NCBI RefSeq assembly: GCF_015482765.1
Contig: NZ_JADMLB010000061.1
Location: 1-64,000 of the forward strand
Direction: 5' to 3'
DNA length: 64,000 nt
Source: Halodesulfovibrio sp.
GTDB taxonomy: Bacteria > Desulfobacterota > Desulfovibrionia > Desulfovibrionales > Desulfovibrionaceae
The position numbers and the translations under genes are program-made. The notes under the pieces are model-generated. The model saw only the letters and a program-made list of their open reading frames with translations. It was not told where the DNA came from and did no database searches. Below are positions 22,734 to 62,560 of the stretch, in pieces (position 1 is the stretch's first letter; each line of letters opens with the position of its first letter).

Positions 22734-23564
22734 CTATTTTTCTTTCTTTTTTGCCTTAGGAGTTTTGCTTTTCTCATCCGATTTAGCAGGCTTTTTTTTC
22801 TTATCTTCGCTTTTTTCTTTAGCGACACGTTCTTTTTTTGCACTGTCTTTTTTCTTGTGACTATCTTTCATCTCAGCCGATTCCAGATCTTCACCATAAT
22901 TGTGTTCTGCACAACATCCAGCATGTGGAGTGTGTGTTTTGCCTTCGCAACACCCTCTATATCCATGAACGTGGTTGCCATGGTGATCGTTTGTGTCTGT
23001 TGGGTCTGCCTGTTCTGATGAAGCAGTCGCGCCGTAGTGATGCTCTGCACAGCATCCGTCATGAGGCTCATGATCTTTTCCCTGACAACAGCCGTGATGC
23101 ATATCATGATGGCCTTCTGCATGTTCGTGAGTATGGCAGAGCTGGTGTTCATCTTTTCCGTGACAGTGGTAGTGAGAGTGGAAGCCTTCGGGATGTTCGG
23201 AGTGATGATCGCCGTGATGCCCGTCGTAGAGCTCATCATGGTGTCCGGGGCCATGCGAGTGGGCATGTTTTATAAAGTTACCGCTGCGGTGTGATTTATG
23301 CTTTCCGTGGGAATGGTGGGGAGAATGGGTATGGGAAGCACCCTGTGTTGTCCATTCTAGTGAAATGACAAGACGTTGTTTTTCGTACTTGGTTTTTGCC
23401 TCAATATTCATTTCAATTTCGGCATCGGGATGCAGGACTATTTTTTCATGCCCTTCTTCAATAACAACACTGCCGCTGCGTATTCCATCAAGAAAACATT
23501 CGATATGCGATACTGCGAGATCGCAAGGCATTTTTCCTGATATGTGAATTTTCTTTTTTTCCAT
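22734..23564 (-). CDS. Amphi-Trp domain protein with His/Cys-rich metal-binding region
   Basis: A 276-residue modular protein, last gene of the GAK cassette. Residues 1-73 fit the amphi-Trp domain, a short beta-alpha module known alongside GAK genes: a helix with LDGIRSGSVVI, then VLHPDAEIEMNIEAKTK and the closing LEW. Residues 75-202 are extremely His-rich. Two 21-residue repeats at 158-178 and 204-224 share GCC-x-GK-x-H-x-PH-x-GCCAEH-x-YG, so Cys pairs and His are conserved between copies. Residues 233-276 form a Lys/Glu tail. No signal peptide is seen. The central region probably binds or stores a metal such as nickel, zinc or copper; this is inference. GAGGAG lies upstream of the ATG. Confidence 0.8.
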   Translation of the reverse strand: MEKKKIHISGKMPCDLAVSHIECFLDGIRSGSVVIEEGHEKIVLHPDAEIEMNIEAKTKYEKQRLVISLEWTTQGASHTHSPHHSHGKHKSHRSGNFIKHAHSHGPGHHDELYDGHHGDHHSEHPEGFHSHYHCHGKDEHQLCHTHEHAEGHHDMHHGCCQGKDHEPHDGCCAEHHYGATASSEQADPTDTNDHHGNHVHGYRGCCEGKTHTPHAGCCAEHNYGEDLESAEMKDSHKKKDSAKKERVAKEKSEDKKKKPAKSDEKSKTPKAKKKEK

Positions 23565-23588
23565 GTGTCTCTCCTCATGCCGGCACTG

Positions 23589-24782
23589 CTAGCAAAGAGA
23601 TAAGAGAACCTTGTTTAGCACTGCGGCATCTATGTATGGTGAGCTGTTTTTTGTAATTACGTTGCAGGATACCACATCAATGCCTTCTCGTGACAGCATA
23701 TCATTGTTGAGGGAGCCATTATATCGCGTAGAATCAGAATCAACGACGATCAGGTTCAGCACATCTTTGGTGGAAATTGTATTTGGAGAGTCTTTTTTCA
23801 AATGATGTAGCAGTGTTTCTATCTGCTCGGATAGAGTATGTCCTGCAAGTTCTACATCAGTTCCTGTATTAGGAATAAAGATTTTCGGGCAGTTTGTTTG
23901 TGCAATGCTAGTTCCTACACCTTTAGGCAGCAGGTTGGCGATGACACTGGAGTAAAAGCTTCCCATTGGGTAGCAGATAAGCTCTGCACTGTGGATAAGT
24001 TCCTGTGTGCGTTGAGGAATGCTTACAGTGATCGGTGTCGGGTCATGTTGTGATGCTGCAAGCCATATGTTGTTAATTTTTGAGTGTAACGGTGCAGCTT
24101 CCTTCCCTGTAATGAGATGCTGCCCGACAATAGTTGTTCCATCAGTAAGAGAAACAGCCAGTTGAGCAGTAACATTGGCGATAGGCCGGACAAGCCCCCG
24201 CACTTCAGCCAGTTTGGAGAAAAGGTAAATGACCGGAGAAAGGTGTCTGCCGTGATCAAGGTATTCAGCTGCAAGAACAAGGTTACCAAGACTTGCACCG
24301 CGAAGATCAAAAGATTCAGATGCAGATCTTCTAAAAGACACCATACTTGCTTGAATGAAGCTGCGCATGGGATATGGAACAGCCAACATAAGGGGGTGTG
24401 TGCCGTCACAAAGGTGAGACAGTTCAGAACGCAGTTCTTGTTGGGATGCTTCCTTATCAAGCCTGTGAGCGAAAAAGGAATACATATCCGGATTTCCATG
24501 AATGGAACTGTCAGCAAGTGACATAAGGCGATTACGGATATCACCGACGGCAGGCATTGAAAATTCTTTACGTAATACCGCTGAACTGCCACCGGAATCA
24601 AACGGGGTAATCAGGTGGATAGAATTATGTGTGTATTGGATAATATCCCGTGAAACACCCTGTAATGCAGTTCCGCCACTGAAAAAGAGAATGCGTGGTC
24701 CGTTCTGCGGAGCAGAGCGGTAGCGTTCAATTTTTCGAGGGTCTGGAATGGAAACCATTCTGGTTATTTCTACATGCTGCAT
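23589..24782 (-). CDS. GAK system CofD-related protein
   Basis: The 397 residues are related to CofD/YvcK (2-phospho-L-lactate transferase-like) proteins. Visible motifs are SGGTAL (35-40), PFDSGGSS (60-67), GDIRNR (80-85), RGASLGN (161-167) and the C-terminal YPMGSFYSSVIANLLPKGV, all part of the family's nucleotide or substrate pocket. The product is longer than a typical CofD (about 310 residues), with an extended N-terminus. I recall a dedicated protein family for the GAK-associated form; no substrate is known. It overlaps the kinase gene by 13 bases, indicating coupled translation. It probably transfers or binds a phosphorylated metabolite. Confidence 0.85.
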   Translation of the reverse strand: MQHVEITRMVSIPDPRKIERYRSAPQNGPRILFFSGGTALQGVSRDIIQYTHNSIHLITPFDSGGSSAVLRKEFSMPAVGDIRNRLMSLADSSIHGNPDMYSFFAHRLDKEASQQELRSELSHLCDGTHPLMLAVPYPMRSFIQASMVSFRRSASESFDLRGASLGNLVLAAEYLDHGRHLSPVIYLFSKLAEVRGLVRPIANVTAQLAVSLTDGTTIVGQHLITGKEAAPLHSKINNIWLAASQHDPTPITVSIPQRTQELIHSAELICYPMGSFYSSVIANLLPKGVGTSIAQTNCPKIFIPNTGTDVELAGHTLSEQIETLLHHLKKDSPNTISTKDVLNLIVVDSDSTRYNGSLNNDMLSREGIDVVSCNVITKNSSPYIDAAVLNKVLLSLC

Positions 24783-25882
24783 TGTTTATTATTAAGCTGT
24801 GTTTCAAGTTTCAGGGTTGATAGTAAGGCTTGTGTAGCGTCAGCAAAATTAACGCCGCCTTGCAAAATAAATATCGGGATATCGCGAAGCGCCTGTATAT
24901 AATCTGGTAACGTCGGGTCTGTATAGTTTTTATTTTCTGGGAGAAAAAGCAGGTCGTTTTTCTTCATTAAATACTTAATAAAATAGGATGCATTTTGAGC
25001 TGAAAGTTGTTTAATTTGCACCGGTACATCAATTCGTTCCCAGTCCATAATGACAACACCACTGAGGGGAGCATGGGGGATAAACCTGTTTGCTCCATAG
25101 TAGGTTGGAATAAGCGCGTCATACTTTATTTCTGTCGTCCACAGTTGTTCTGAAGGCAAGCTTTCGAACTTATGGTGTTCCTGTTCTGAAAGTATACTGT
25201 CCAGACAAGGGTTGTTCAATGCTGTTCCCGGATTTATGCGTGGTTGCTGTGCTGTTCCGAAAAATAAACCTGTCCCGTCTTTATTGATGAGCACTCTGTC
25301 ATTACTGACAAAGTTTGCTCCTGCTGTAACCATATGGAGCGCCAGAGTAGATTTTCCTGCACCGGAATCTCCACTGATAATCATACCATGTCCATCAAGT
25401 TCTACTGCCGAGGCATGTCCCAGCAGATAGCCTTCATCAACTTTGTTTTTAATAAAGCGGCTGTTAATGAAGTTCACAACTTGATTTTTCATTGTAAGGC
25501 AGGGACCAGCCATACAGTTTTGTTCGTTCCCTATGAAGTAGTGCATGTCAGTGATGCGGTGGTGAACTATTCTTCCTCCAGAAAGATCAATCCACTCATG
25601 CTTGCATGGTTTATGCGGAGCTGAGGGCGTTGCCAGTTTGTAGGAATAGGGAAAGCTTATGGAAGAAGCGTCGTGCACCGTTACAGTGCTGTGTACATCA
25701 GCCTGTGGGGTTTCGACAATGAATTCATGAAAGTAGGCGGTTAGAATTTGTTTAAGAGGAAGACTGTTTGTGAATACATCAATATAGAAACCATTGAAGG
25801 TTATTTGCAGACGGAACGTCGCTGGGTAGCGACTGCGCACGGCATCAATGACTGATGTGAAATCTGAAAAATCTATGTCCAT
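24770..25882 (-). CDS. GAK system HprK-related kinase
   Basis: A 370-residue P-loop kinase related to HPr kinase/phosphorylase (HprK-related, probably the B form). The core is at residues 155-200: GHASAVEL with a conserved His156, then Walker A GDSGAGKST (171-179), then FVSNDRVLI (192-199), in the same order as in HprK. The N-terminal 150 residues differ from HprK and carry no DRTGG-like regulatory domain. No HPr gene is near, so its target is unknown; the XXXCH or amphi-Trp proteins of the cassette are possible substrates. Its start overlaps the ATP-grasp gene by 10 bases. Confidence 0.85.
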   Translation of the reverse strand: MDIDFSDFTSVIDAVRSRYPATFRLQITFNGFYIDVFTNSLPLKQILTAYFHEFIVETPQADVHSTVTVHDASSISFPYSYKLATPSAPHKPCKHEWIDLSGGRIVHHRITDMHYFIGNEQNCMAGPCLTMKNQVVNFINSRFIKNKVDEGYLLGHASAVELDGHGMIISGDSGAGKSTLALHMVTAGANFVSNDRVLINKDGTGLFFGTAQQPRINPGTALNNPCLDSILSEQEHHKFESLPSEQLWTTEIKYDALIPTYYGANRFIPHAPLSGVVIMDWERIDVPVQIKQLSAQNASYFIKYLMKKNDLLFLPENKNYTDPTLPDYIQALRDIPIFILQGGVNFADATQALLSTLKLETQLNNKQCSM

Positions 25883-26748
25883 GACAGTTCCTTAACTACA
25901 GAATCTACATAGAGTTTTGCTGCATTGATACCGCTGGACTTAAGGATACCTTTGAAGCCGCCAAATGCTGAAACCTCAAAGACAACTGGTCCGTCTGAAG
26001 TAATGGCGACATCAACGCAGGTAAAATCGAGATCAAACAGCTCCTGTGCCTTGCGTGCCAATTCAATGATCTCAAGAGAAGGTGTATAGCTTGCATAGTG
26101 CCCGCCTGAAGCTGTTGTTGTGTTCCAAGAGTTTCCTTTACAGCGGGCGTAGGTGGTTAAGTATTTTCCCTTAATGAAGACAACGCCAAGATCTTTATCT
26201 TCCTCTAAATCAACAACCTTTTGTATGTACATGAGAGGGAAATGTTCTGCGTATTCAACAATGGTTGAGTATGCTTCTGTGTTGTTCTCCACCACAATCA
26301 TTCCCCGTCCTTTAGAAGAGTAGAGAGGCTTGAACACAGCTTTTCCGTATTCTTTTACGGTTGCCAGAGCTTCTTCGACATTTTCTGTCAACGTTGTTGG
26401 CGGCATTGGGATACCGGCAAGTTTGAGAGAGGCTGTGCACGATAGTCTGTTCAGTACAGATATGATGCTTGAAGGTTTTGAAAAAACGGGCAGCCCGTTT
26501 TCATTGAGGAACCGGAGCATCTCTAAACGATCAAGTAAGGCGGGAGAGTACCATGCTCCGACTTTTTTGATCATAAGACCGTTTAAGGTATTCAGGTTTA
26601 CGCCATTGAACCAGCAGGTATTGTTATGCAGATCTAGGCGGATGTCCTTCATATCAATCAGTAATCTGTATCCAGTTTTTTCAGCAACCGTGTCGGCTAA
26701 CAGCTCGGAAGACCATCCGCCGGGGGTGCCGATTACACCAATTTTCAT
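25873..26748 (-). CDS. GAK system ATP-grasp enzyme (RimK-like)
   Basis: A 291-residue ATP-grasp ligase close to RimK/LysX. Sequence in order: N-terminal MKIGVIGTPGGW, ATP-binding VFKPLYSSKGRGM (138-150), YIQKVV hinge (174-179), the NTTTASGGH loop (209-217) that corresponds to the RimK NWRTN-GG region, and the metal site around D246 and FEVSAFGGFKGI (257-268). The metal-site motif has Ser where RimK has Asn (EVN). Such enzymes join a carboxylate to an amine through an acyl phosphate, often adding amino acids to a peptide or protein end. I start at 26748 because AGGA lies 8 bases before; the ATG nine bases earlier has no ribosome-binding site. Confidence 0.85.
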   Translation of the reverse strand: MKIGVIGTPGGWSSELLADTVAEKTGYRLLIDMKDIRLDLHNNTCWFNGVNLNTLNGLMIKKVGAWYSPALLDRLEMLRFLNENGLPVFSKPSSIISVLNRLSCTASLKLAGIPMPPTTLTENVEEALATVKEYGKAVFKPLYSSKGRGMIVVENNTEAYSTIVEYAEHFPLMYIQKVVDLEEDKDLGVVFIKGKYLTTYARCKGNSWNTTTASGGHYASYTPSLEIIELARKAQELFDLDFTCVDVAITSDGPVVFEVSAFGGFKGILKSSGINAAKLYVDSVVKELSWT

Positions 26749-26815
26749 GTGACCCATCCTGAGTTTAGTTGCTTCTTTGTTTTTTCCGGTGGCAGGTTAC
26801 GTGCCGCACGCCAAC

Positions 26816-28456
26816 TCAGTAGTATAAAATATCCTCTGGAAGCTTAAAGGCACTCCACTTCCCCGTGTGGCTTAGAAGTTTTTCCATAAGATAATGTGCC
26901 CGTAGGTACATTCGTTTTGCAAAGCTCTGGTTTAGTTCGAATCGGGTTGATGTGTAAAAGGAACGAGCTAGTGCAAACGTAAGTCTGGTTTCGAATGTGG
27001 AATCAGCGTGAGTTTTGGAGAATTCTTGAACAAACGAGTAGAAAGTCTCTGTGGTTCTATTGAGCTTGTCTCGAAGTTCAGGTTCAAAAATTGGCAGGCG
27101 AAAGAGTGAGATAAGAAATACGGAGGCATCCTGCACGTAGTCAAAGTCTCTTGAGCGGTAAAGATCAATATAGCGAACTGTTTGTTGCTGATTGTTGTAT
27201 ACGATGTTGTTCATATTAAAATCGCCATGAATCAGAACGGAAAAGGGAGCTGTCAGACCTTTTTCTAAGAGAGAGCACTGGGCAAGGAGTTCACGAGTTG
27301 AAAATGCTTTTATTCCGCCGATGGAAAGAGAATCCCGTGCGGATGCGGGGTGAACTTTCAGTACAGGAGACAGTCTGCTTGCAAGCTGTTGGATATAGTT
27401 TGTGGGAACTGGATGTACATTCTTGGTTGTTTCCCAGACACTTTGTACGGTTGTTGTTAGTGCAGTAAGAGCCCGGTCTGTTACATATTGATCTGCCTGA
27501 AGAATTATTTCATCTAATGTACAGCCGTGCAGCAACTCAATGAGTAGGGCGGCATTATCTGTTCCTTCATGGTAACCGTAGATGTGCGGCACTAGCGCAG
27601 GAAACAGGTTTTGCCAACGCTCAAGGTTTTCCTTTTCCTTCTTAATTTTATTAATCGACCCTTCTTTGTATATTGAGCCGTGTGGGGCATGTTCTGCTTG
27701 ATCTGCTGTTTCTACAACTCCGACACAACAGCCGGAACGACTTCCAAGGATTGCTCGATAGTCGACTTCATTCATTGACCCTGTGAAGCCTGATTGTGTC
27801 AGGGTTTCTTGCAGTGCATCAAATTGTGATATTTTTAAGGTATTACCTATAGTTATACAGATGAGCGCTTCACCTATGCGTAGGAGAGAATCTCCGATGC
27901 GTTCCAGATAGCGGTAGATGAAAATAGCAGTAACATGTCCTGATGCTTGTTTGCCTGAATCTATTTCAGTTATGAGTTTAGAGAACACCTGTTCGTATTT
28001 TTCATCAAGTGTGTGCTCATACTGGCATATTTGGAGTGCTGTAGAGAGATCGCCTGTATCAATAGTGGGGCGGATAAGCTTCAATGCTTCTTGGATGTCA
28101 GTAAAAAACGGTGTGAATTCGTGAGGATTCAGTTTGCTGTAGCGGGTCAGGTAACGCATTTGTCCTGTTATGTTTACGCAAAATTCAGCGATAAGATGTA
28201 AGTGCGTAGCCATCTTCTGCAATGCGCGTAATTTATTAACCTCGGCTTGAGTTAATTTATGCGTTGAGTGGAGTTCGGAATAACATTTCGTTTCAACCAC
28301 GGTTTGTATGTTGGCAGTACGATCACAACGAAGAGCGATTTCCTGCCGCAAACTTTTAGTTGGCCGCAGCAAAAATTGCAGGGTGGCATCTATTTGCCCC
28401 TGAACTTCGAGTAAGAGGAATGTAAAATGTTCGTGCAGTGCTTCAAACATCAGCAT
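26816..28456 (-). CDS. PhoU-like / aminoglycoside phosphotransferase-like fusion
   Basis: A two-part protein of 546 residues. Residues 1-220 form a helical PhoU-like bundle, with the PhoU metal-cluster motif RYLERIGDS at 182-190. Residues 235-546 are an APH/choline-kinase-like kinase: an ATP-site Lys in YKEGS (264), the catalytic loop HGDFNMNN (410-417), and the metal-binding Asp in YIDLYRSRD (431). I do not know this exact fusion by name. It probably phosphorylates a small molecule or protein, with the PhoU part tuning it to phosphate or metal. The start codon has no clear ribosome-binding site, and an ATG six bases later is equally possible. Confidence 0.75.
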   Translation of the reverse strand: MLMFEALHEHFTFLLLEVQGQIDATLQFLLRPTKSLRQEIALRCDRTANIQTVVETKCYSELHSTHKLTQAEVNKLRALQKMATHLHLIAEFCVNITGQMRYLTRYSKLNPHEFTPFFTDIQEALKLIRPTIDTGDLSTALQICQYEHTLDEKYEQVFSKLITEIDSGKQASGHVTAIFIYRYLERIGDSLLRIGEALICITIGNTLKISQFDALQETLTQSGFTGSMNEVDYRAILGSRSGCCVGVVETADQAEHAPHGSIYKEGSINKIKKEKENLERWQNLFPALVPHIYGYHEGTDNAALLIELLHGCTLDEIILQADQYVTDRALTALTTTVQSVWETTKNVHPVPTNYIQQLASRLSPVLKVHPASARDSLSIGGIKAFSTRELLAQCSLLEKGLTAPFSVLIHGDFNMNNIVYNNQQQTVRYIDLYRSRDFDYVQDASVFLISLFRLPIFEPELRDKLNRTTETFYSFVQEFSKTHADSTFETRLTFALARSFYTSTRFELNQSFAKRMYLRAHYLMEKLLSHTGKWSAFKLPEDILYY

Positions 28457-28513
28457 AGTGTTTCTACCAATTCCAAGATAACGTTGCCGTAAATATCCAT
28501 TTGTCGGGGAAAA

Positions 28514-28549
28514 GTCAGGATTTTCGTAAAAAACGAGATCTATCCTGAC
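28514..28549 (-). terminator. Possible attenuator inside the GAK cassette
   Basis: GTCAGGAT (28514-28521) pairs with ATCCTGAC (28542-28549), with an inner 5-bp stem. On the minus strand the hairpin overlaps the stop codon of the PHP-like gene and is followed by TTTTCCCC. It could lower expression of the five genes below it. Confidence 0.4.
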
Positions 28550-29709
28550 AGACGGTTTCGATACTCTTCAATAACATTCTTTCGAGTAACGCCGCCGCGG
28601 ATGAGTTTTTTTTGTATACAAAGGTCATCCCACGCTGGTTGCAGTCCTATTTCTCGTACGGTTTTTTCTGGGTCCTGCTCTTCTTTTCTGCGTGTTTTTT
28701 CACCTTGGTGGCAGTCATCGCCCATAAGAATGAGAAGTTCTCTACAAACGCCTTTGCGGGGCTTGTTGTGTTCGTTTACGACATCGATAAGAAACTCTGT
28801 GTAGCGGTGGGATTGTGGATTCCAGACTTCGTATCCATCAACATCATATCGGCCAAGAAGGATCGGCCAAAATTGTTCTGGATGAGGAATAACGATACAG
28901 CCGCCTATACCTCGCGTTTCTTCTATAATTTCAGATGCCCGATAGAAATATTCTAGAGGAAAGCTCGCTTTTACGAGATTTTTTACTTCCTGAACAAAGG
29001 TTTGGACGCGGTCGATGAATTGATGTCCGAACTGTGGACGCATGGCGTCAAAGTAGTTTCGGATAAGTTTATTACGTATGGAAAATTCGGGAACATTCTC
29101 CCAGTGTTCGTTCAGGAGGCGTTCGATTTTTCCGACAACTGTACAGGCAAATTTTACGGCAACCGGATCAACACCTGTTTTGCGGGAAGCTTTATGCAGG
29201 CGATCTTCTACAGGTTTGGTAAATGAATGAATGAAGTCGAAGAGTTGACTTGATCTGTACTTACGTGTGTGCGCAAGCATCGCACGAAGCATGGTGTCAT
29301 TCCCTTCAAGTTTGCTTGTCTCAAAGTGAATAAGCAGTTGAACTTTTTCTTGAAAGCCGCTGGCATAACAATCTACTTCCGTCCCTGTATAAGCGCCATA
29401 TGCAAGTAACTCATTATGCTGGGTGGGGATAATGAGTTCGTCCTTACGGTTGGGGAACATTTTCTCAATACGTTCTTTATTAAGCTCCATTGGAACAAAT
29501 TCTGGGTGCCAATGGGTAGCCAAGACGTGTTGCTGCCTCGGATAAAGAGTATCCGGAGCAATAATTTGCTGAGCCTGCCAGTCTTCAAGCGTTGTAGAAA
29601 TTATGGTTAAAAAGATTTTATGGTCTCTTTCTGTAACTTCTTCTGAGTAGTTACGCAGTGTATCAAGAAGTCTGGCATTATCTTTTTCCTGTTCGGCAGT
29701 GAACTTCAT
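28540..29709 (-). CDS. PHP-like metal-dependent hydrolase, GAK cassette
   Basis: A 389-residue protein that I read as PHP-like (polymerase and histidinol phosphatase fold). Metal-ligand motifs appear in the right order: HWHPE at 66-70 (HxH), IPHPEQF at 274-280, the YEVWNPQS strand at 293-300, and DDCHQG at 331-336 (DxH). Between them lies a long helical insertion (about 140-260) rich in charged residues. The active form would be a metal-dependent phosphoesterase or an inactive metal-binding relative. The start ATG (MKFTAEQ) has GGGGGA just upstream. It is preceded by the XXXCH gene with 24 bases between. Confidence 0.6.
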   Translation of the reverse strand: MKFTAEQEKDNARLLDTLRNYSEEVTERDHKIFLTIISTTLEDWQAQQIIAPDTLYPRQQHVLATHWHPEFVPMELNKERIEKMFPNRKDELIIPTQHNELLAYGAYTGTEVDCYASGFQEKVQLLIHFETSKLEGNDTMLRAMLAHTRKYRSSQLFDFIHSFTKPVEDRLHKASRKTGVDPVAVKFACTVVGKIERLLNEHWENVPEFSIRNKLIRNYFDAMRPQFGHQFIDRVQTFVQEVKNLVKASFPLEYFYRASEIIEETRGIGGCIVIPHPEQFWPILLGRYDVDGYEVWNPQSHRYTEFLIDVVNEHNKPRKGVCRELLILMGDDCHQGEKTRRKEEQDPEKTVREIGLQPAWDDLCIQKKLIRGGVTRKNVIEEYRNRLSG

Positions 29710-29733
29710 GTGTCCCCCCAACCGCAAGACACG

Positions 29734-30264
29734 TTATTTATACTTATGATGACATTCTGTTTTCATGTGGTTCATTGCATCTACGGTTTCATGGAATTTC
29801 TGTAAGTTTTTATTCTGCCATGCTTCTTCGAGTATATCTGTGAGTTTGTCGTATTCAGCATACAGCGGGTCACCTTTACCCGGATATTTTGTCATTAATC
29901 TGGAGTCCGTAATGAAGTCCTGCACAGCCTCTTCAGGCGGTGTAATATTTTGGTGTAGAGATTTAAATATGACTTTAAAACTTGAAGCCATGCGTTTTTT
30001 TAAGCGCTTGTAGCGTGGAAGACCATCAGGACGTCTGCCACCGCATTCACAGTCTTCACAAATTTCACATTCATCTATGTAGGCGCTCAGTTTCAATTTG
30101 ACAGTAAGTTGGCCATATTCATCTTTGATTCCAAGACGTATTTTTTTTGCGTTTGTGCAATCTGGAAACCCTTCAGCCGGCGTAGATTCGCATGCGTCTG
30201 CAAGCTTGCGGAAGAAAGCGGGCAGATCTTCCCGTGTGATTGTCTGTGTGTATTTTTCAGCCAT
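29734..30264 (-). CDS. GAK system XXXCH protein
   Basis: A 176-residue protein, first gene of the cassette. Its C-terminus (AMNHMKTECHHKYK) has the Cys171-His172 pair of the XXXCH family, which resembles the end of a haem c-binding site without its first Cys. A second Cys cluster, CEICEDCEC, is at 66-74. The segment KKIRLGIKDEYGQLTVKLKL (40-59) recalls the beta hairpin of the amphi-Trp domain, so both ends of the cassette may share a fold. No signal peptide is seen. AGGAG lies upstream of the ATG. A weak promoter-like pair (TTGATA and TATCAA, 19 bases apart) lies upstream at 30354-30324, beside the rpoBC terminator. Confidence 0.75.
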   Translation of the reverse strand: MAEKYTQTITREDLPAFFRKLADACESTPAEGFPDCTNAKKIRLGIKDEYGQLTVKLKLSAYIDECEICEDCECGGRRPDGLPRYKRLKKRMASSFKVIFKSLHQNITPPEEAVQDFITDSRLMTKYPGKGDPLYAEYDKLTDILEEAWQNKNLQKFHETVDAMNHMKTECHHKYK

Positions 30265-30359
30265 GTGGTCTCCTGTGAGTCGTAGTAAAATGAGAGTGTA
30301 TGATGAGAAGAGCATGACTTTAATTGATAGTCAAATGGCAGCCGGTATTATCAACAAAA

Positions 30360-30391
30360 AAAGCCCCCGCATCTGTTGATGCGGGGGCTTT
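30360..30391 (-). terminator. Terminator of the rpoBC operon
   Basis: AAAGCCCCCGCATC and its complement form a perfect 14-bp stem around a TGTT/AACA loop, followed on the minus strand by six T. It separates rpoC from the GAK cassette. Confidence 0.92.
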
Positions 30392-30407: not shown

Positions 30408-33400
30408 TTAAACGCCTGCAGAGTAAACCGGCTCGTCGAGTTCGTCGAGGAACTTGTCGGCACGTTCTTCCTGCTGAGGTACTTCGATGTTTGCGGAAAC
30501 GAAGTCGCGGTAACCGGAACCAGCCGGAATGAGGCGACCCACAATAACGTTCTCTTTGAGACCGCGCAGTCTGTCGCGTTTGCCGCGCAGAGAAGCTTCG
30601 GTAAGAACTTTTGTGGTTTCCTGGAAGGAAGCCGCAGAGATGAAGGAAGATGTTGTGAGGGAAGCCTGTGTAATACCGAGAACCAATGGCTCAGCATTCG
30701 CAGGTTTGCGACCTTCAGCAACAGCTTTTCTGTTTTCATCACGGAATTCCTGCTTGTCGACCTGTTCACCAACGAGGAAGCTGGTTTCACCTGGATCAAG
30801 CACGGATACCTTCTTAAGCATCTGGCGAACGATAATCTCAATGTGCTTATCGTCAATACCTACGCCCTGGAAGCGGTAAACTTCCTGAATCTCTTCACAC
30901 AAGTAGTTAGCGAGGAATTTCTCGCCTTTAATGCGGAGGATATCGTGAAGTTCTGGCTGACCTTCAGTAAGCTGTTCGCCTGCTTCAACGAAGTCACCTT
31001 CGGTAACAGTGATGTGCTTACCTTTTGGTACGAGGTATTCTTTAGGTTCGCCAACCTCAGGTGTAACCATAAGCTTACGCTTACCTTTTGTTTCACCTGC
31101 GTAGGATACGATACCGTCGATTTCTGTAACAACAGCGAGGTCTTTAGGTTTGCGAACCTCGAAGAGTTCCGCAACTCGTGGAAGACCACCAACGATATCT
31201 TTAGTTTTGGATGTTTCACGCGGCTTACGAGCGATAACATCACCCGCTTCAAGCTGCTGGCCATCCTGAATCATGATAATCGCGCCAACTGGGAGCTGGT
31301 AAACCGCAGGGATGGAAGAATCACCACGGAACTTAGGCTCGCCGTCTTCATCACAAATAGAGATGGAAGGCTTCAAGTTGGTTGTACGGTACTCAATAAT
31401 GGTACGTGTTGCCATCTGAGTAGCGAGGTCAGTAGTTTCCTGGAAGGTTTTGCCATCGATAATATCGGTGAACTTAACAGTACCAGGAACTTCAGATACG
31501 AATGGTTCGTTAAACGGATCCCATTCTGCGATTACCTGACCTTTTTCAACTTCCTGACCTTCGGTTACGTTCAAACGGGAACCGTTAGGCAGGATGTATT
31601 TTTCACGCTCACGACCCTGTTCGTCAACAATGGAAACCTGACCGGATTTACCAAGAACAAGGTGGTAACCTTCTTTGTTGGTAACAGCTTTAACACGGGA
31701 GGTCACAATGCGACCAGCGTGCTGAGCTTCGATGCTGGATTTCTCAATCTGAGTAGATGCAGTACCACCAATGTGGAATGTACGCATTGTCAGCTGAGTA
31801 CCTGGTTCACCAATTGACTGAGCAGCAATAATACCAACAGTTTCACCGCAGTTTACGAGACGACCGCGAGCGAGGTCACGACCGTAACACAGTGCACAAA
31901 TACCGTGTTCGGAAGAACAGGTGAGTGCAGAGCGGATGGTGATGGAGTTAATGCCACGATCGTCGAGCAGCTGTGCGCGTACTTCGTCGATCAGGCCATT
32001 TGCAGGAATGATTTCTTCTTTAGTAACCGGATCAATAACCGGGTACAGAACAACACGACCGATTGCACGCTCGGAGAGGCGCATTTTGATCTCACCACCG
32101 ATAATGAGGTGACCGAGTTCAAGGCCGTCAACAGTACCACAATCGTGTTCGCCGATGATAACGTCCTGTACAACGTCAACAAGACGACGGGTAAGGTAAC
32201 CGGAGTTCGCGGTTTTAAGCGCGGTATCCGCAAGACCTTTACGAGCACCGTGAGTAGAGGTGAAGTACTGAAGCACGGAAAGACCTTCACGGAAGGAAGA
32301 TGTAATTGGTGTTTCAATAATTTCACCGGACGGTTTCGCCATCAGACCACGCATACCTGCGAGCTGACGCATCTGGTCCTGGTTACCACGAGCACCGGAG
32401 TTGGACATCATGAAGATGGAGTTGAAGGAGAGGTTAGCCTCTTCTTTACCAGTCTTCTCGTCTTTGATGATATCACGGGAGATGTGTTTCATCATTTCGT
32501 TGGACACGTCCTGAGTGGTCTTAGTCCAAACATCAACGATTTTGTTGTATTTCTCGGTACGGGTAATGATACCTTCGCGGTACTGGCGTTCAATTTCGTC
32601 AACTTCTGCCTGAGATTTTTCCAGAATGCCTTTTTTGCTGTCCGGAATCTCAAGGTCTTTAACCGCAATGGTAACACCAGCGCGGGTACCGTACTCGTAA
32701 CCTAAGTTTTTGAGACGGTCACAAAGAAGAACAGAAGCTTTGATGCCGCATTCGCGGTATGCGGAGCTTACGAGTTTACCAATGTTTTTCTTGGTCATAA
32801 CTTCGTTAGCACGATCGAAGCTCATGCCTTTTGGCAGAATCTGAGAAACGATAACTCGACCCGGGGTGGTTTCTACGATGCGGCCGCTATCGAGGCGAAC
32901 CTTGATGCGTGCATGCAGGGATACCTGACCATGGTCGTATGCTGTAATAACTTCCCAGCGTCCGCAGAATTCCATGCCTTCGCCTTTCTCGAAAGAACGC
33001 TCAACAGTCATGTAGTACAGACCGAGAACGATATCCTGAGAAGGAACGATAACAGGAGAACCGTTAGCTGGTGAAAGAATGTTGTTTGTAGACATCATAA
33101 GTACGCGTGCTTCAATCTGCGCTTCCACAGAAAGAGGTACGTGTACAGCCATCTGGTCACCATCGAAGTCAGCGTTGTACGCGGAACATACGAGAGGGTG
33201 CAGGCGAATAGCCTTACCTTCAACGAGGGTAGGTTCGAATGCCTGAATACCGAGACGGTGAAGTGTCGGCGCACGGTTAAGGAGAATTGGGTATTCGCGA
33301 ACAACCTCTTCGAGGATATCCCAAACTACCAGCTCTTCTCGTTCAACCATTTTCTTCGCACTCTTAATAGTAGAGGCGAGGTTTCTTTCTTCGAGCTTGG

Positions 33401-42502: not shown

Positions 42503-42579
42503 TGGCAGGGGTGGAGGGATTCGAACCCGCAACATCCGGTTTTGGAGACCGGCGCTCTAGCCGTTGGAGCTACACCCCT
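42503..42579 (-). tRNA. tRNA-Trp (CCA)
   Basis: On the minus strand the acceptor arm AGGGGTG/CACCCCT closes a cloverleaf with anticodon CCA in the loop CTCCAAA, the T-loop GTTCGAATC, discriminator G and an encoded CCA end. It lies between rpmG and secE. Confidence 0.97.
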
Positions 42580-42594
42580 GCGTTTTTATAACAC

Positions 42595-42744
42595 TTACTT
42601 AGTTTCGCGATGAAGAGTGTGTTTCTTGTCCCAAGGACAATACTTCTTCAACTCAACGCGAGCAGTAGTGTTTTTCTTGTTCTTTACGGTCGCGTAATTG
42701 CGTCGTTTGCACTCAGTGCAAGCGAGCTGGATGTTAACGCGCAT
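42595..42744 (-). CDS. rpmG: 50S ribosomal protein L33
   Basis: A 49-residue ribosomal protein ([20 protein letters not shown] at the start and HTLHRETK at the end). It has Cys9-x-x-Cys12 and a third Cys in YCPWD, where the zinc-binding form usually has a fourth ligand; here Asp takes that place. GGAG lies 8 bases before the ATG, inside the end of tuf, and only 3 bases separate the genes. It is too short for many gene callers. Confidence 0.95.
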
Positions 42745-42747
42745 GAA

Positions 42748-43941
42748 TTACTCCACGATTTCAGAAACAACACCTGCACCTACGGTACGGCCACCTTCGC
42801 GGATAGCGAAGCGGAGACCATTTTCCATAGCGATTGGGTTGATCAGTTCTACGTTGAATACAGCGTTATCGCCTGGCATTACCATTTCAACGCCTTCGTC
42901 AAGTGCGATTACGCCAGTGATGTCAGTTGTACGGAAGTAGAACTGAGGGCGGTAACCGGAGAAGAATGGAGTGTGACGTCCACCTTCGTCTTTGGAAAGT
43001 ACGTATACTTCAGCTTTAAACTTGGTGTGAGGAGTGATGGAACCTGGTTTACAAAGAACCTGGCCACGCTCAACCTCGTCACGTTTAACACCGCGAAGGA
43101 GGAGGCCAACGTTATCGCCAGCTTCACCGCGATCGAGAAGTTTACGGAACATTTCAACGCCGGTACAAGTAGTTTTCTGAGTTTCTTTGATACCAACGAT
43201 TTCTACTTCTTCACCAACAGTGATTACGCCACGCTCAACACGGCCAGTTACTACTGTACCACGACCAGAGATGGAGAACACGTCTTCAACTGGGAGAAGG
43301 AAAGGTTTGTCGATATCGCGCTCTGGCTCAGGAATGTAAGAGTCACAAGCATCGAGGAGTTCGAGGATTGGAGCAGCAGCAGCGTCTTCAGCAGAATCAG
43401 CTTCGAGAGCTTTAAGTGCAGAACCACGGATAACAGGAATGTCATCACCTGGGAAATCGTAAGAAGAAAGAAGTTCACGAACTTCCATTTCAACGAGTTC
43501 GAGGAGTTCTTCGTCGTCAACCATGTCGCATTTGTTCATGAATACAACGAGGGAAGGTACACCAACCTGACGAGCGAGCAGGATGTGCTCACGAGTCTGA
43601 GGCATAGGACCGTCAGTCGCTGCAACAACGAGGATACCACCGTCCATCTGTGCTGCACCGGTGATCATGTTTTTGATGTAGTCTGCGTGACCTGGGCAGT
43701 CAACGTGAGCGTAGTGACGTGCGTCAGTTTCGTACTCAACGTGTGCAGTCGCGATAGTAATACCGCGCTCTTTTTCTTCAGGAGCTTTATCGATTTCATC
43801 GAATGCTACTGCGGTACCGCCCTGTTTGAGAGCTGCAACTTTAGTGATAGCTGCGGTAAGAGTGGTTTTACCGTGGTCAATGTGACCAACGGTGCCGATG
43901 TTTACATGCGGCTTACTGCGTTCAAATTTTTCTTTACCCAT
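42748..43941 (-). CDS. tuf: Elongation factor Tu
   Basis: A 397-residue GTPase that delivers aminoacyl-tRNA. The G-motifs are complete: GHIDHGKTT (P-loop, residues about 19-27), [12 protein letters not shown] (switch I), DCPGH (82-86), NKCD (138-141) and GSALK. The start is [19 protein letters not shown], with GGAG upstream of the ATG. It is the tufB-type copy, linked to tRNA genes upstream and rpmG/secE downstream. No second tuf is in the window. Confidence 0.99.
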
Positions 43942-43992
43942 GAGTAAATCTCCCTGGCAATGAATTTTTCTCGGTTATCCGAAAATAATTAA

Positions 43993-44068
<76 letters not shown>

Positions 44069-44108
44069 TTCTCTTATTCAAAAAGCTATAGGGAGAACTC
44101 AGGCTAGT

Positions 44109-44184
44109 TGGAGCGGGAAACGAGACTCGAACTCGCAACCCTCAGCTTGGAAGGCTGATGCTCTACCAATTGAGCTATTCCCGC
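44109..44184 (-). tRNA. tRNA-Gly (TCC)
   Basis: Acceptor GCGGGAA/TTCCCGC, anticodon TCC between CAGCC and GGCTG-like arms, T-loop GTTCGAGTC, encoded CCA. Confidence 0.96.
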
Positions 44185-44239
44185 TTATAAGCGCCGTAGT
44201 TCTCCGACTTGAGTCTCCTACAGCCTGCTACTTAGCAAC

Positions 44240-44325
44240 TGGTGGTGGGGGGAGGATTTGAACCTCCGAAGGCATACGCCGACAGATTTACAGTCTGTTC
44301 CCTTTGGCCACTCGGGAACCCCACC
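44240..44325 (-). tRNA. tRNA-Tyr (GTA)
   Basis: Acceptor GGTGGGG/CCCCACC, anticodon GTA in GACTGTAAATC, and a long variable arm as expected for a class II tRNA. The CCA is encoded. Confidence 0.96.
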
Positions 44326-44330
44326 TGTTC

Positions 44331-44406
44331 TGGAGCTGGCGATGGGACTTGAACCCGCAACCTGCTGATTACAAATCAGCTGCTCTACCAATTGAGCTAC
44401 GCCAGC
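44331..44406 (-). tRNA. tRNA-Thr (TGT)
   Basis: Acceptor GCTGGCG/CGCCAGC, anticodon TGT in GATTTGTAATC, T-loop GTTCAAGTC, encoded CCA. First in transcription order; only five bases separate it from tRNA-Tyr. Confidence 0.96.
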
Positions 44407-62180: not shown

Positions 62181-62363
62181 GGCAAAAGCCTCCAATGTTT
62201 TGGGGCGGGGATATGGCGCATGGACGGTGCACAGTGCGCACCGGTAGCGAAGTGTGTTTTGCAAGACAAGGCCCCGTGTCTGCTAAAACGTGCCTGATAT
62301 CCACGTCTGCCGAAAGGAAAGGGGTTAGAATTCGAAGGCAGGTATGGTGTGGATATCTACAAT

Positions 62364-62520
62364 GTTTCAGGCAGGTCTTCCGGCTTGTTCCTCTTTCTCC
62401 ACCTTCCCGGTAACCCAGTGGTATATTGAAGAAAGATTGAATAGAACTTACGGCGGCGGGACCGCTCCCGACTTTAACGGGATTCCCTATTAGGCTTTAT
62501 GAGCACCTGAAGTGAGGCAC
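62364..62520 (-). promoter_or_regulatory. Cobalamin riboswitch
   Basis: Read on the minus strand, the aptamer has the AGGTGCTC start, then AAAGCCTAATAGGGAAT, the GGTGAAAxxC region here as AAAGTCGGG, the core GCGGTCCCGCCGCCG, and the B12-box like end CCGGAAGACCTGCC near 62377. It lies 180-340 bases before cbiK. Bound cobalamin should lower expression of the operon. The 180-base stretch from 62181 to 62363 is the expression platform; it has a near-palindrome (CGGTGC/GCACCG at 62225-62243) but no evident T-run terminator, so control may be at translation. Confidence 0.88.
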
Positions 62521-62560
62521 TGTACACGCAATAAAATTGAGCGGTCAAGGAGTGATATTG

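Follow-up and report, generated by a model that had tools for sequence, protein, structure and literature searches.

Gene neighbourhoods and PhoB-type boxes point to the GAK system of Halodesulfovibrio and other sulfate reducers as a probable part of the phosphate response

Two described systems lie closest to the locus reported here. One is the GAK system, defined by five protein families (NCBIfam TIGR04354 to TIGR04358); no paper on the system or its families was found in the open-access full-text literature. The other is the Pho regulon of Desulfovibrio (Pst, PhoB/R, Agt, OlsF). According to the consulted sections of PMC5193443, Pst, PhoR, Agt (Dde_3613) and OlsF matter in phosphate-limited D. 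alaskensis, and according to those of PMC3333781 the PhoB half-site of D. vulgaris is (c/t)GT(n)AC, with a 4-bp spacer between the 6-bp repeats. We analysed a 64,000-nucleotide stretch of a Halodesulfovibrio sp. genome (contig NZ_JADMLB010000061.1, positions 1 to 64,000; hereafter the window), which carries a seven-gene GAK cassette. We put at roughly 0.6 the probability that the GAK system belongs to the phosphate-starvation response of sulfate reducers and related bacteria, where it would serve as a phosphorylation and ligation system that acts on amphi-Trp proteins. Within that reading, assignment of the GAK system in general to the Pho regulon appears likely from gene neighbourhoods and upstream sequences, while the assignment of the window locus itself is weaker. 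The mechanism of modification, the chemistry of which we infer, is a tentative proposal and, as it stands, a somewhat unlikely one.

With the named GAK system the window shares all five families, clustered and each above its NCBIfam cut-off (five of the seven cassette proteins pass such cut-offs). It differs in that a PHP phosphoesterase and a PhoU-kinase fusion are also regular members and in that the window is without amphi-Trp A. The likeness to the Desulfovibrio Pho regulon lies in the neighbourhoods and the PhoB-type boxes of many GAK-bearing relatives; the window, in contrast, has no strict box, the consulted sections of PMC5193443 and PMC3333781 name no GAK gene, and the main text of PMC5193443 contains neither "ATP-grasp" nor "HPr". 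By its family matches the cassette is a GAK system, as the first-pass annotation had proposed. The seven open reading frames fill positions 30264 to 22734, all on the minus strand, with intergenic gaps of -13 to 83 nt (in gene order from XXXCH to amphi-Trp 24 nt, or 6 with a TTG start, then 83, 58, -10, -13 and 24), which confirms the earlier description of one-strand genes with short gaps or overlaps. The PHP-like frame starts with ATG at 29709, with an alternative TTG at 29727. The features are as follows.

29734 to 30264, minus strand: XXXCH protein, 176 amino acids, amphi-Trp-like domain plus predicted four-helix bundle (TIGR04358, 95.9 bits, cut-off 40; model pLDDT 87.6)
30085 to 30258, minus strand: N-terminal beta-alpha-beta-beta domain of XXXCH, residues 3-60, probably amphi-Trp related (TIGR04354 matches in homologues and predicted secondary structure)
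29737 to 30012, minus strand: predicted four-helix bundle at the C-terminus of XXXCH, of cytochrome c'/b562 type by homologue profile matches, with C171-H172-xx-Y175-K176-COOH as its end
28540 to 29709, minus strand: predicted PHP-fold metal-dependent phosphoesterase with a helical insert, 389 amino acids from the ATG (AF2 model with Foldseek and VIA)
26816 to 28456, minus strand: PhoU domain fused to an APH-like kinase, 546 amino acids (PF01895, PF02958, weak PF01636)
25873 to 26757, minus strand: GAK ATP-grasp enzyme (TIGR04356, grasp_GAK, 424 bits, cut-off 300)
24770 to 25882, minus strand: HprK-related kinase B (TIGR04355, HprK_rel_B, 357 bits, cut-off 200)
23589 to 24782, minus strand: GAK CofD-like (YvcK-like) protein (TIGR04357, CofD_rel_GAK, 529 bits, cut-off 340)
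22734 to 23564, minus strand: amphi-Trp B protein with a genus-specific His-rich tail (TIGR04354, 38 bits, cut-off 31; His fraction of the tail 0.20)

Open reading frames were called in six frames in 173 loci and in the window and were scored with profiles grown from the window proteins, presence in the locus counts being decided by bit scores that we set ourselves and not by curated cut-offs. A locus was counted as GAK when it held at least two of the PHP, PhoU-kinase, ATP-grasp and HprK genes; this gave 133 loci, 127 of them unique by sequence and 113 complete, that is, with enough flank. A link to phosphate-starvation genes, absent from the first-pass annotation, is found in these neighbourhoods. 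A pst or phoU gene lies within 5 kb in 12 of the 133 GAK loci and in none of 39 CofD-only controls; in nine of the 12 it is on the same strand, and in eight of those nine within about 350 nt upstream. Locus L040 reads pstS-C-A-B-phoU and then XXXCH, and L154, L155, L156, L168 and L186 read phoB-phoR-pstB-phoU and then the cassette. Here the names pst, phoB and ArsC stand for BLAST matches to one or two query proteins, a few of them checked by family models, and the labels phoR, yidC, PhoH-like and P-type ATPase were given by eye or by BLAST only. An ArsC-like protein occurs within 5 kb in 10 of the 133 loci and in one of the 39 controls (L044, possibly a truncated GAK locus, whose contig starts inside CofD); the one such protein scanned matched arsC_pI258 below cut-off.

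Two lipid-type genes behave similarly. A GT4 glycosyltransferase of about 800 amino acids, up to 9 kb away, accompanies 25 of the 133 loci, and an OlsF-like protein 11 (10 without a duplicate); neither was found in the 39 controls. The best named NCBIfam matches of the glycosyltransferase are lipid-type glycosyltransferases, below cut-off, and its N-terminal half looks PHP-like; of four proteins scanned, three matched PF02811 below cut-off and one had no match to it. The OlsF-like proteins, which have both OlsF halves, reached 412 and 415 bits, below the cut-off of 620. Across 80 genomes, a glycosyltransferase lies within 10 kb of grasp_GAK in 15 (0.32 expected), pstB in six (0.47) and OlsF in seven (0.29), in a test that assumed a 4.0-Mb genome, had two dummy ATP-grasp places in its list and typed only places able to share a contig with the ATP-grasp gene (41 of 93 for pstB, 26 of 58 for OlsF). 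Because Poisson values ignore kinship we also give genus counts: at least one of the three genes is within 10 kb in 22 of the 80 genomes and 11 of 34 genera (about 1 expected).

Displaced GAK genes tend to the same surroundings, six of 10 places being within 5 kb of pst, glycosyltransferase or OlsF-type genes. Three genomes of one genus (L201-L203) have pstB-phoU-HprK-CofD and a further HprK in the main cassette; elsewhere a displaced HprK adjoins OlsF (L204), precedes pstA-pstB by 4.4 kb (L206) or follows pstS-pstC-pstA by 233 nt on the same strand (L180). The genome of L180 (G334) has a second partial cassette there (PhoU-kinase, ATP-grasp and amphi-Trp, with that HprK on the opposite strand) beside a glycosyltransferase, and its main cassette is without HprK.

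The regions upstream of the cassettes were searched for YGTNAC-N5-YGTNAC, a box with an 11-bp period. Of 120 upstream regions, 13 hold an exact box (0.0 in shuffles) and 40 a box with at most one mismatch (2.0 in shuffles); with duplicates removed the counts are 13 and 38 of 114, spread over 15 of 36 genera, these 36 being the ones with a usable upstream region. Other spacers gave 0 to 2 exact and 3 to 11 one-mismatch boxes, against 1.4 to 3.8 of the latter in shuffles. Boxes with at most one mismatch were much rarer upstream of inner cassette genes (9 of 461, Fisher 5e-22) and of other open reading frames (49 of 671, Fisher 4e-13), a control set that holds spurious frames and perhaps unrecognised phosphate genes. 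Linked genes behaved as positives, with boxes upstream of 5 of 22 glycosyltransferases and 6 of 11 OlsF genes. An E. coli-type Pho box, CTGTCAT-N4-CTGTCAT, was also tried and set aside: it showed a weak excess at 11 of 14 matches (8 of 120 regions, the window among them, against 1.4 expected). The clear signal came from the Desulfovibrio half-site and not from the E. coli-type box.

Several observations weigh against placing the GAK system in the Pho response. The published spacer of 4 gives just two exact and 11 one-mismatch loci, the enrichment sitting at spacer 5, and some boxes may serve a divergent neighbour (a glycosyltransferase in L170-L174, an ArsC-like gene in L138 and L140). No recognised pst or phoU gene lies within 5 kb in 121 of the 133 loci, some CofD-only controls, on contigs that stop close to CofD, may be truncated GAK loci, and four of the 10 displaced places have no such genes within 5 kb (L207, about 17 kb from pstB, and L208, L209 and L210). 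In the window no phosphate gene was seen beside the cassette, its neighbour in the genus being rpoC, and no PhoB box with at most one mismatch at spacer 5 lies upstream. Because the window has no strict box, Pho control of its cassette is inferred from relatives. CofD, moreover, occurs without GAK in many Desulfovibrio loci and was not found in two of 16 genomes searched for it, nor HprK in four of 11. Since CofD stands alone in some genomes, and CofD or HprK was not found in others, a fixed seven-step pathway everywhere is not to be expected.

The cassette itself is well kept among relatives, of which the closest named one is Halodesulfovibrio spirochaetisodalis (L025; CofD 77% identical). 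In the window's class, where the system is common, 143 of 348 genomes have an ATP-grasp enzyme above the cut-off, as do 20 of 297 in a sample of the phylum. CofD with at least two other GAK enzymes also occurs in Zixibacteriota (L032, L034, L067), Coatesbacteria (L062), Nitrospirae (L072), Lambdaproteobacteria (L085) and Geothermincola (L083), all of them metagenome bins with taxa as labelled. The first-pass annotation had tied its proposal to the genes' staying together across genomes and to conserved catalytic residues. All five enzymes are present in 93 of the 113 complete loci, in the order PHP-PhoUK-GRASP-HPRK-COFD in 87, counts that are biased upward by the use of ATP-grasp and CofD as baits and by the rule of two enzymes out of four. 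Singly, PHP is found in 106, PhoU-kinase in 111, ATP-grasp in 113 (bait), HprK in 102, CofD in 103 (bait), XXXCH in 86 and any amphi-Trp protein in 110 (amphi-Trp A in 94, B in 65). On these counts the PHP-like and PhoU-APH kinase genes are core members and not extras, in line with the earlier suggestion that they extend the core.

The fullest form has eight gene kinds (41 of the 113 complete loci), and the window-type set of seven, without amphi-Trp A and with B, occurs in seven, the window included. Amphi-Trp A sits between PHP and PhoU-kinase in 94 of the complete loci. At that site the window has its 83-nt gap and L025 a 90-amino-acid amphi-Trp gene; in the whole genome of the window TIGR04354 matches at E<=1 the last cassette gene only, so that amphi-Trp A was not found.

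Some further observations concern the gene families and their surroundings. CofD_rel_GAK relatives without GAK genes in Desulfovibrio (L088-L104) have beside them frames that resemble yidC, jag and mnmE on inspection by eye, and three genomes of genus g3 (G076, G109, G190) have CofD above cut-off and no grasp_GAK match at E<=1e-40. A second ATP-grasp in one genome (L002; G000:C50:34372-35232) scores 92 bits to grasp_GAK, below cut-off. A frame of about 800 codons recurs near GAK in nine loci (one shorter), for example at L072:14564-16966, and the one scanned had no Pfam or NCBIfam match at E<=0.001; a frame of PIN/PhoH type by eye recurs in 14 of the 133 loci, for example at L053:19439-20767.

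The PHP-like protein had no NCBIfam match at E<=0.01 and no Pfam match at E<=0.1, and its assignment comes from structure prediction. Foldseek aligned the AF2 model (pLDDT 92.7) at probability 1.00 with 3e0f, 9etk and 2yb1 (E 3.8e-5 for 3e0f, 3.5e-4 for RNase AM and 4.3e-3 for 2yb1). VIA gave Z 15.6 to 3o0f (rmsd 3.5 over 245 aligned residues) and 13.9-15.6 for the PHP rows, followed by EndoQ at 8.9 and phosphotriesterase at 6.0; in these lists, as in those for XXXCH below, absence of a family does not exclude it. Across 38 sequences, conservation is complete or at least 90% at His66, His68, His98, Glu111, Asp113, His128, His276, Asp332 and His334, a set that we take, from general knowledge of the PHP family, to hold the candidate metal ligands. 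As modelled, then, the protein has the PHP phosphoesterase fold with candidate metal-site residues. It shares both with the phosphoesterases BAD_1165, RNase AM and 2yb1, and differs from them in its helical insert and in having no Pfam PHP match.

The other enzymes also keep their putative sites. The PhoU half of the fusion (PF01895, 52 bits) retains E147xxxD151 and ERxGD, and its C-terminal half, which matches EcKL (PF02958) at 25 bits (cut-off 22) and APH (PF01636) at 19 bits, below cut-off, retains K264, HGDxNxxN and D431 (40 rows). In the HprK-related protein the Walker A motif, H156 and SNDR are conserved (32 rows). RimK-type ATP-grasp enzymes carry an ExN motif; at its position the GAK enzyme has a conserved EVSAFGGF (42 rows). 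The PHP, PhoU-kinase, HprK and ATP-grasp alignments thus keep the putative catalytic residues on which the earlier proposal had leaned, and the enzymes look active. They do not look like members of known families, since none reached the cut-offs for characterised relatives: the ATP-grasp scored 147 of 350 bits to MptN and 109 of 143 to the RimK family, the HprK-related protein 43 bits to the HPr(Ser) kinase model (cut-off 240) and the CofD-like protein 120 bits to the YvcK-type model of the CofD-related family (cut-off 196).

Apart from their own GAK models, MptN is the best-scoring model for the ATP-grasp and the YvcK type that for CofD. Such matches suggest a small-molecule pathway, in which the HprK-like kinase would make a phospho-acid, the CofD-like protein would transfer it and the MptN-like ATP-grasp would add an amino-acid tail, yielding an F420-like or methanopterin-like cofactor or a phosphate-sparing metabolite, with amphi-Trp and XXXCH proteins as carriers or users. 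We regard this as doubtful: the CofD match is of the YvcK type, which according to the NCBI model name binds UDP-GlcNAc in known cases, no CofC-like nucleotidyltransferase was noticed among recurrent neighbours (no model search was aimed at CofC), and some genomes have CofD or HprK elsewhere or not at all. The YvcK-type match would also suit a regulator of envelope flux, with YvcK-like and HprK-like proteins steering UDP-sugars to glycolipid synthesis under phosphate starvation and forming no covalent product. The linkage to the lipid-type glycosyltransferase and OlsF agrees with such a role, which we nevertheless think unlikely because it gives no part to the ATP-grasp, which is conserved in 113 of 113 loci (as a bait), or to the PHP enzyme (106 of 113).

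The small proteins bear on what is modified. XXXCH is modelled as the N-terminal beta-alpha-beta-beta domain followed by a C-terminal four-helix bundle. At E<=0.1, 19 of 26 XXXCH proteins are matched by TIGR04354, with a best value of 4.2e-11, but the copy in the window is not; our own amphi-Trp profile had picked up some XXXCH proteins, and the relation is therefore drawn from the NCBIfam model only. For the bundle, Pfam at E<=1 gave Cytochrom_C_2 (PF01322) in 36 of 70 homologues (best E 5.3e-7), Cytochrom_B562 (PF07361) in 31 (best 2e-5) and a third family in six; the window's own copy matched neither cytochrome family at this threshold. Against PDB sequences the XXXCH profile found the natural cytochromes c' 1cgn (E 5.1e-4) and 1e83 (7.6e-4), aligned through CHxxYR. 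The top cytochrome row was an engineered R124K variant (3.2e-4), and a designed porphyrin-binding protein scored better still (1.5e-4), helical repeats inflating such scores. Foldseek gave no match at E<=0.001 (cytochrome c' 2j9b E 0.41, probability 0.99). VIA gave Z of about 10 to cytochrome c' and similar values to designed bundles and fusion partners, which were not accepted as relatives. For the N-terminal part the top Foldseek row was yiiS.

Of 99 XXXCH proteins, 97 have a Cys-His pair at positions -6/-5 counted from the C-terminus, and most keep a CHxx[YF]K end. XXXCH thus reads as a fusion of an amphi-Trp domain with a domain of cytochrome c'/b562 type, in which CXXCH is without its first Cys. 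It resembles the cytochrome c'/b562 family (PF01322, PF07361) in the profile matches of about half of its homologues and in the CHxx[YF]K end, and differs in lacking the first haem Cys, in having no strongly hydrophobic N-terminal stretch and in its fusion to an amphi-Trp domain. Because only the CH of the haem attachment motif is conserved, we do not file XXXCH as a c-type cytochrome, and because none of 96 proteins exceeded 1.8, a cut that we set, for a strongly hydrophobic N-terminal stretch, it is probably cytoplasmic. At the Cys-His pair this C-terminal domain may have kept the capacity to bind haem or a metal. Two other ideas were dropped: the C-terminal CHxxYK as a RimK-type ligase tag, and so as evidence of ligation, because the cytochrome c' match in the same register can account for its conservation; and a b562-like Met/His haem pair, because, although Met92 is nearly invariant in 26 sequences, the helix-1 Met falls outside the nearly invariant columns of an alignment of 70.

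On the view of the first-pass annotation, an amino acid or phosphate is attached to small Cys/His-rich proteins, perhaps to handle metals, with the ATP-grasp and the kinases as the modifying enzymes. The His-rich tail of amphi-Trp B in the window, L111, L112 and L113/L025 (one contig), the metal-type residues of the PHP protein and of the PhoU half, and P-type ATPase-like frames seen by eye near a few cassettes would agree with this. The description of the small proteins is not supported, since the tail is present in these five of 103 tailed amphi-Trp proteins and absent from the other 98, being genus-specific, and XXXCH has one conserved Cys-His pair, set in a helical bundle of cytochrome c'/b562 type. 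The enriched linkage, moreover, is to phosphate genes (metal genes were not put through the same test), and we consider metal handling very unlikely. A further possibility, which we also judge to be quite unlikely, is that XXXCH descends from the b562/c' family by loss of the first haem Cys and fusion to an amphi-Trp domain, and works in the cytoplasm as a protein with haem or a haem-like metal. It would then be a redox or gas sensor, or a modified effector, of a Pho-regulon system in which PhoU-kinase, HprK-like kinase, PHP phosphatase and ATP-grasp ligase write and erase marks on amphi-Trp proteins and so couple the redox state to phosphate starvation.

For the phosphorylation and ligation system that we favour, the following course can be proposed. 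Falling phosphate would let PhoB turn the operon on. The PhoU-kinase would sense phosphate or the state of the transporter through its PhoU half and signal by phosphorylation. The HprK-like kinase would set a phosphate that the PHP phosphoesterase removes, the ATP-grasp enzyme would join an amino acid or similar group to a carboxylate, and the YvcK/CofD-like protein would bind a ligand of nucleotide-sugar type or transfer a phospho-group. Amphi-Trp proteins, XXXCH included, would be the likely acceptors or effectors. The outcome may be that envelope or cofactor metabolism is steered away from phosphate, beside the glycolipid-type and ornithine-lipid enzymes.

The position of the cassette behind rpoBC was given correctly in the first-pass annotation, the rpoC stop lying ahead of it at 30408. 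Because a terminator-like stem separates the two, the cassette is probably transcribed on its own. Two features lie in between.

30355 to 30391, minus strand: intrinsic-terminator-like stem (14 pairs, 30391 to 30360) and T run (one found, 0.6 expected in shuffles)
30311 to 30335, minus strand: promoter-like element TTTGAC...AAGTCATG (by-eye comparison; similar elements upstream of XXXCH in L111, L112 and L113)

The promoter scan of the window did not report the second of these. The rpoC gene adjoins the cassette in nine of the 133 loci, all in the window's genus (L025 and L113 being one contig), and for this reason the linkage was dropped as a functional clue. Elsewhere in the window are a cobalamin riboswitch (62353-62525, minus strand; RF00174, 99 bits) and five tRNA genes for Trp, Thr, Gly, Tyr and Thr (42503-44406, minus strand).

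The GAK families bear the name of a system without a function. The link to phosphate starvation gives a condition under which a phenotype can be sought, and the homology of XXXCH gives a biochemical handle in haem or metal binding. If our reading is true, sulfate reducers would add a whole phosphorylation and ligation module to their Pho response, and this would be relevant to phosphate-poor anoxic sediments, where, according to the consulted sections of PMC5193443, phosphorus-free lipids are common.

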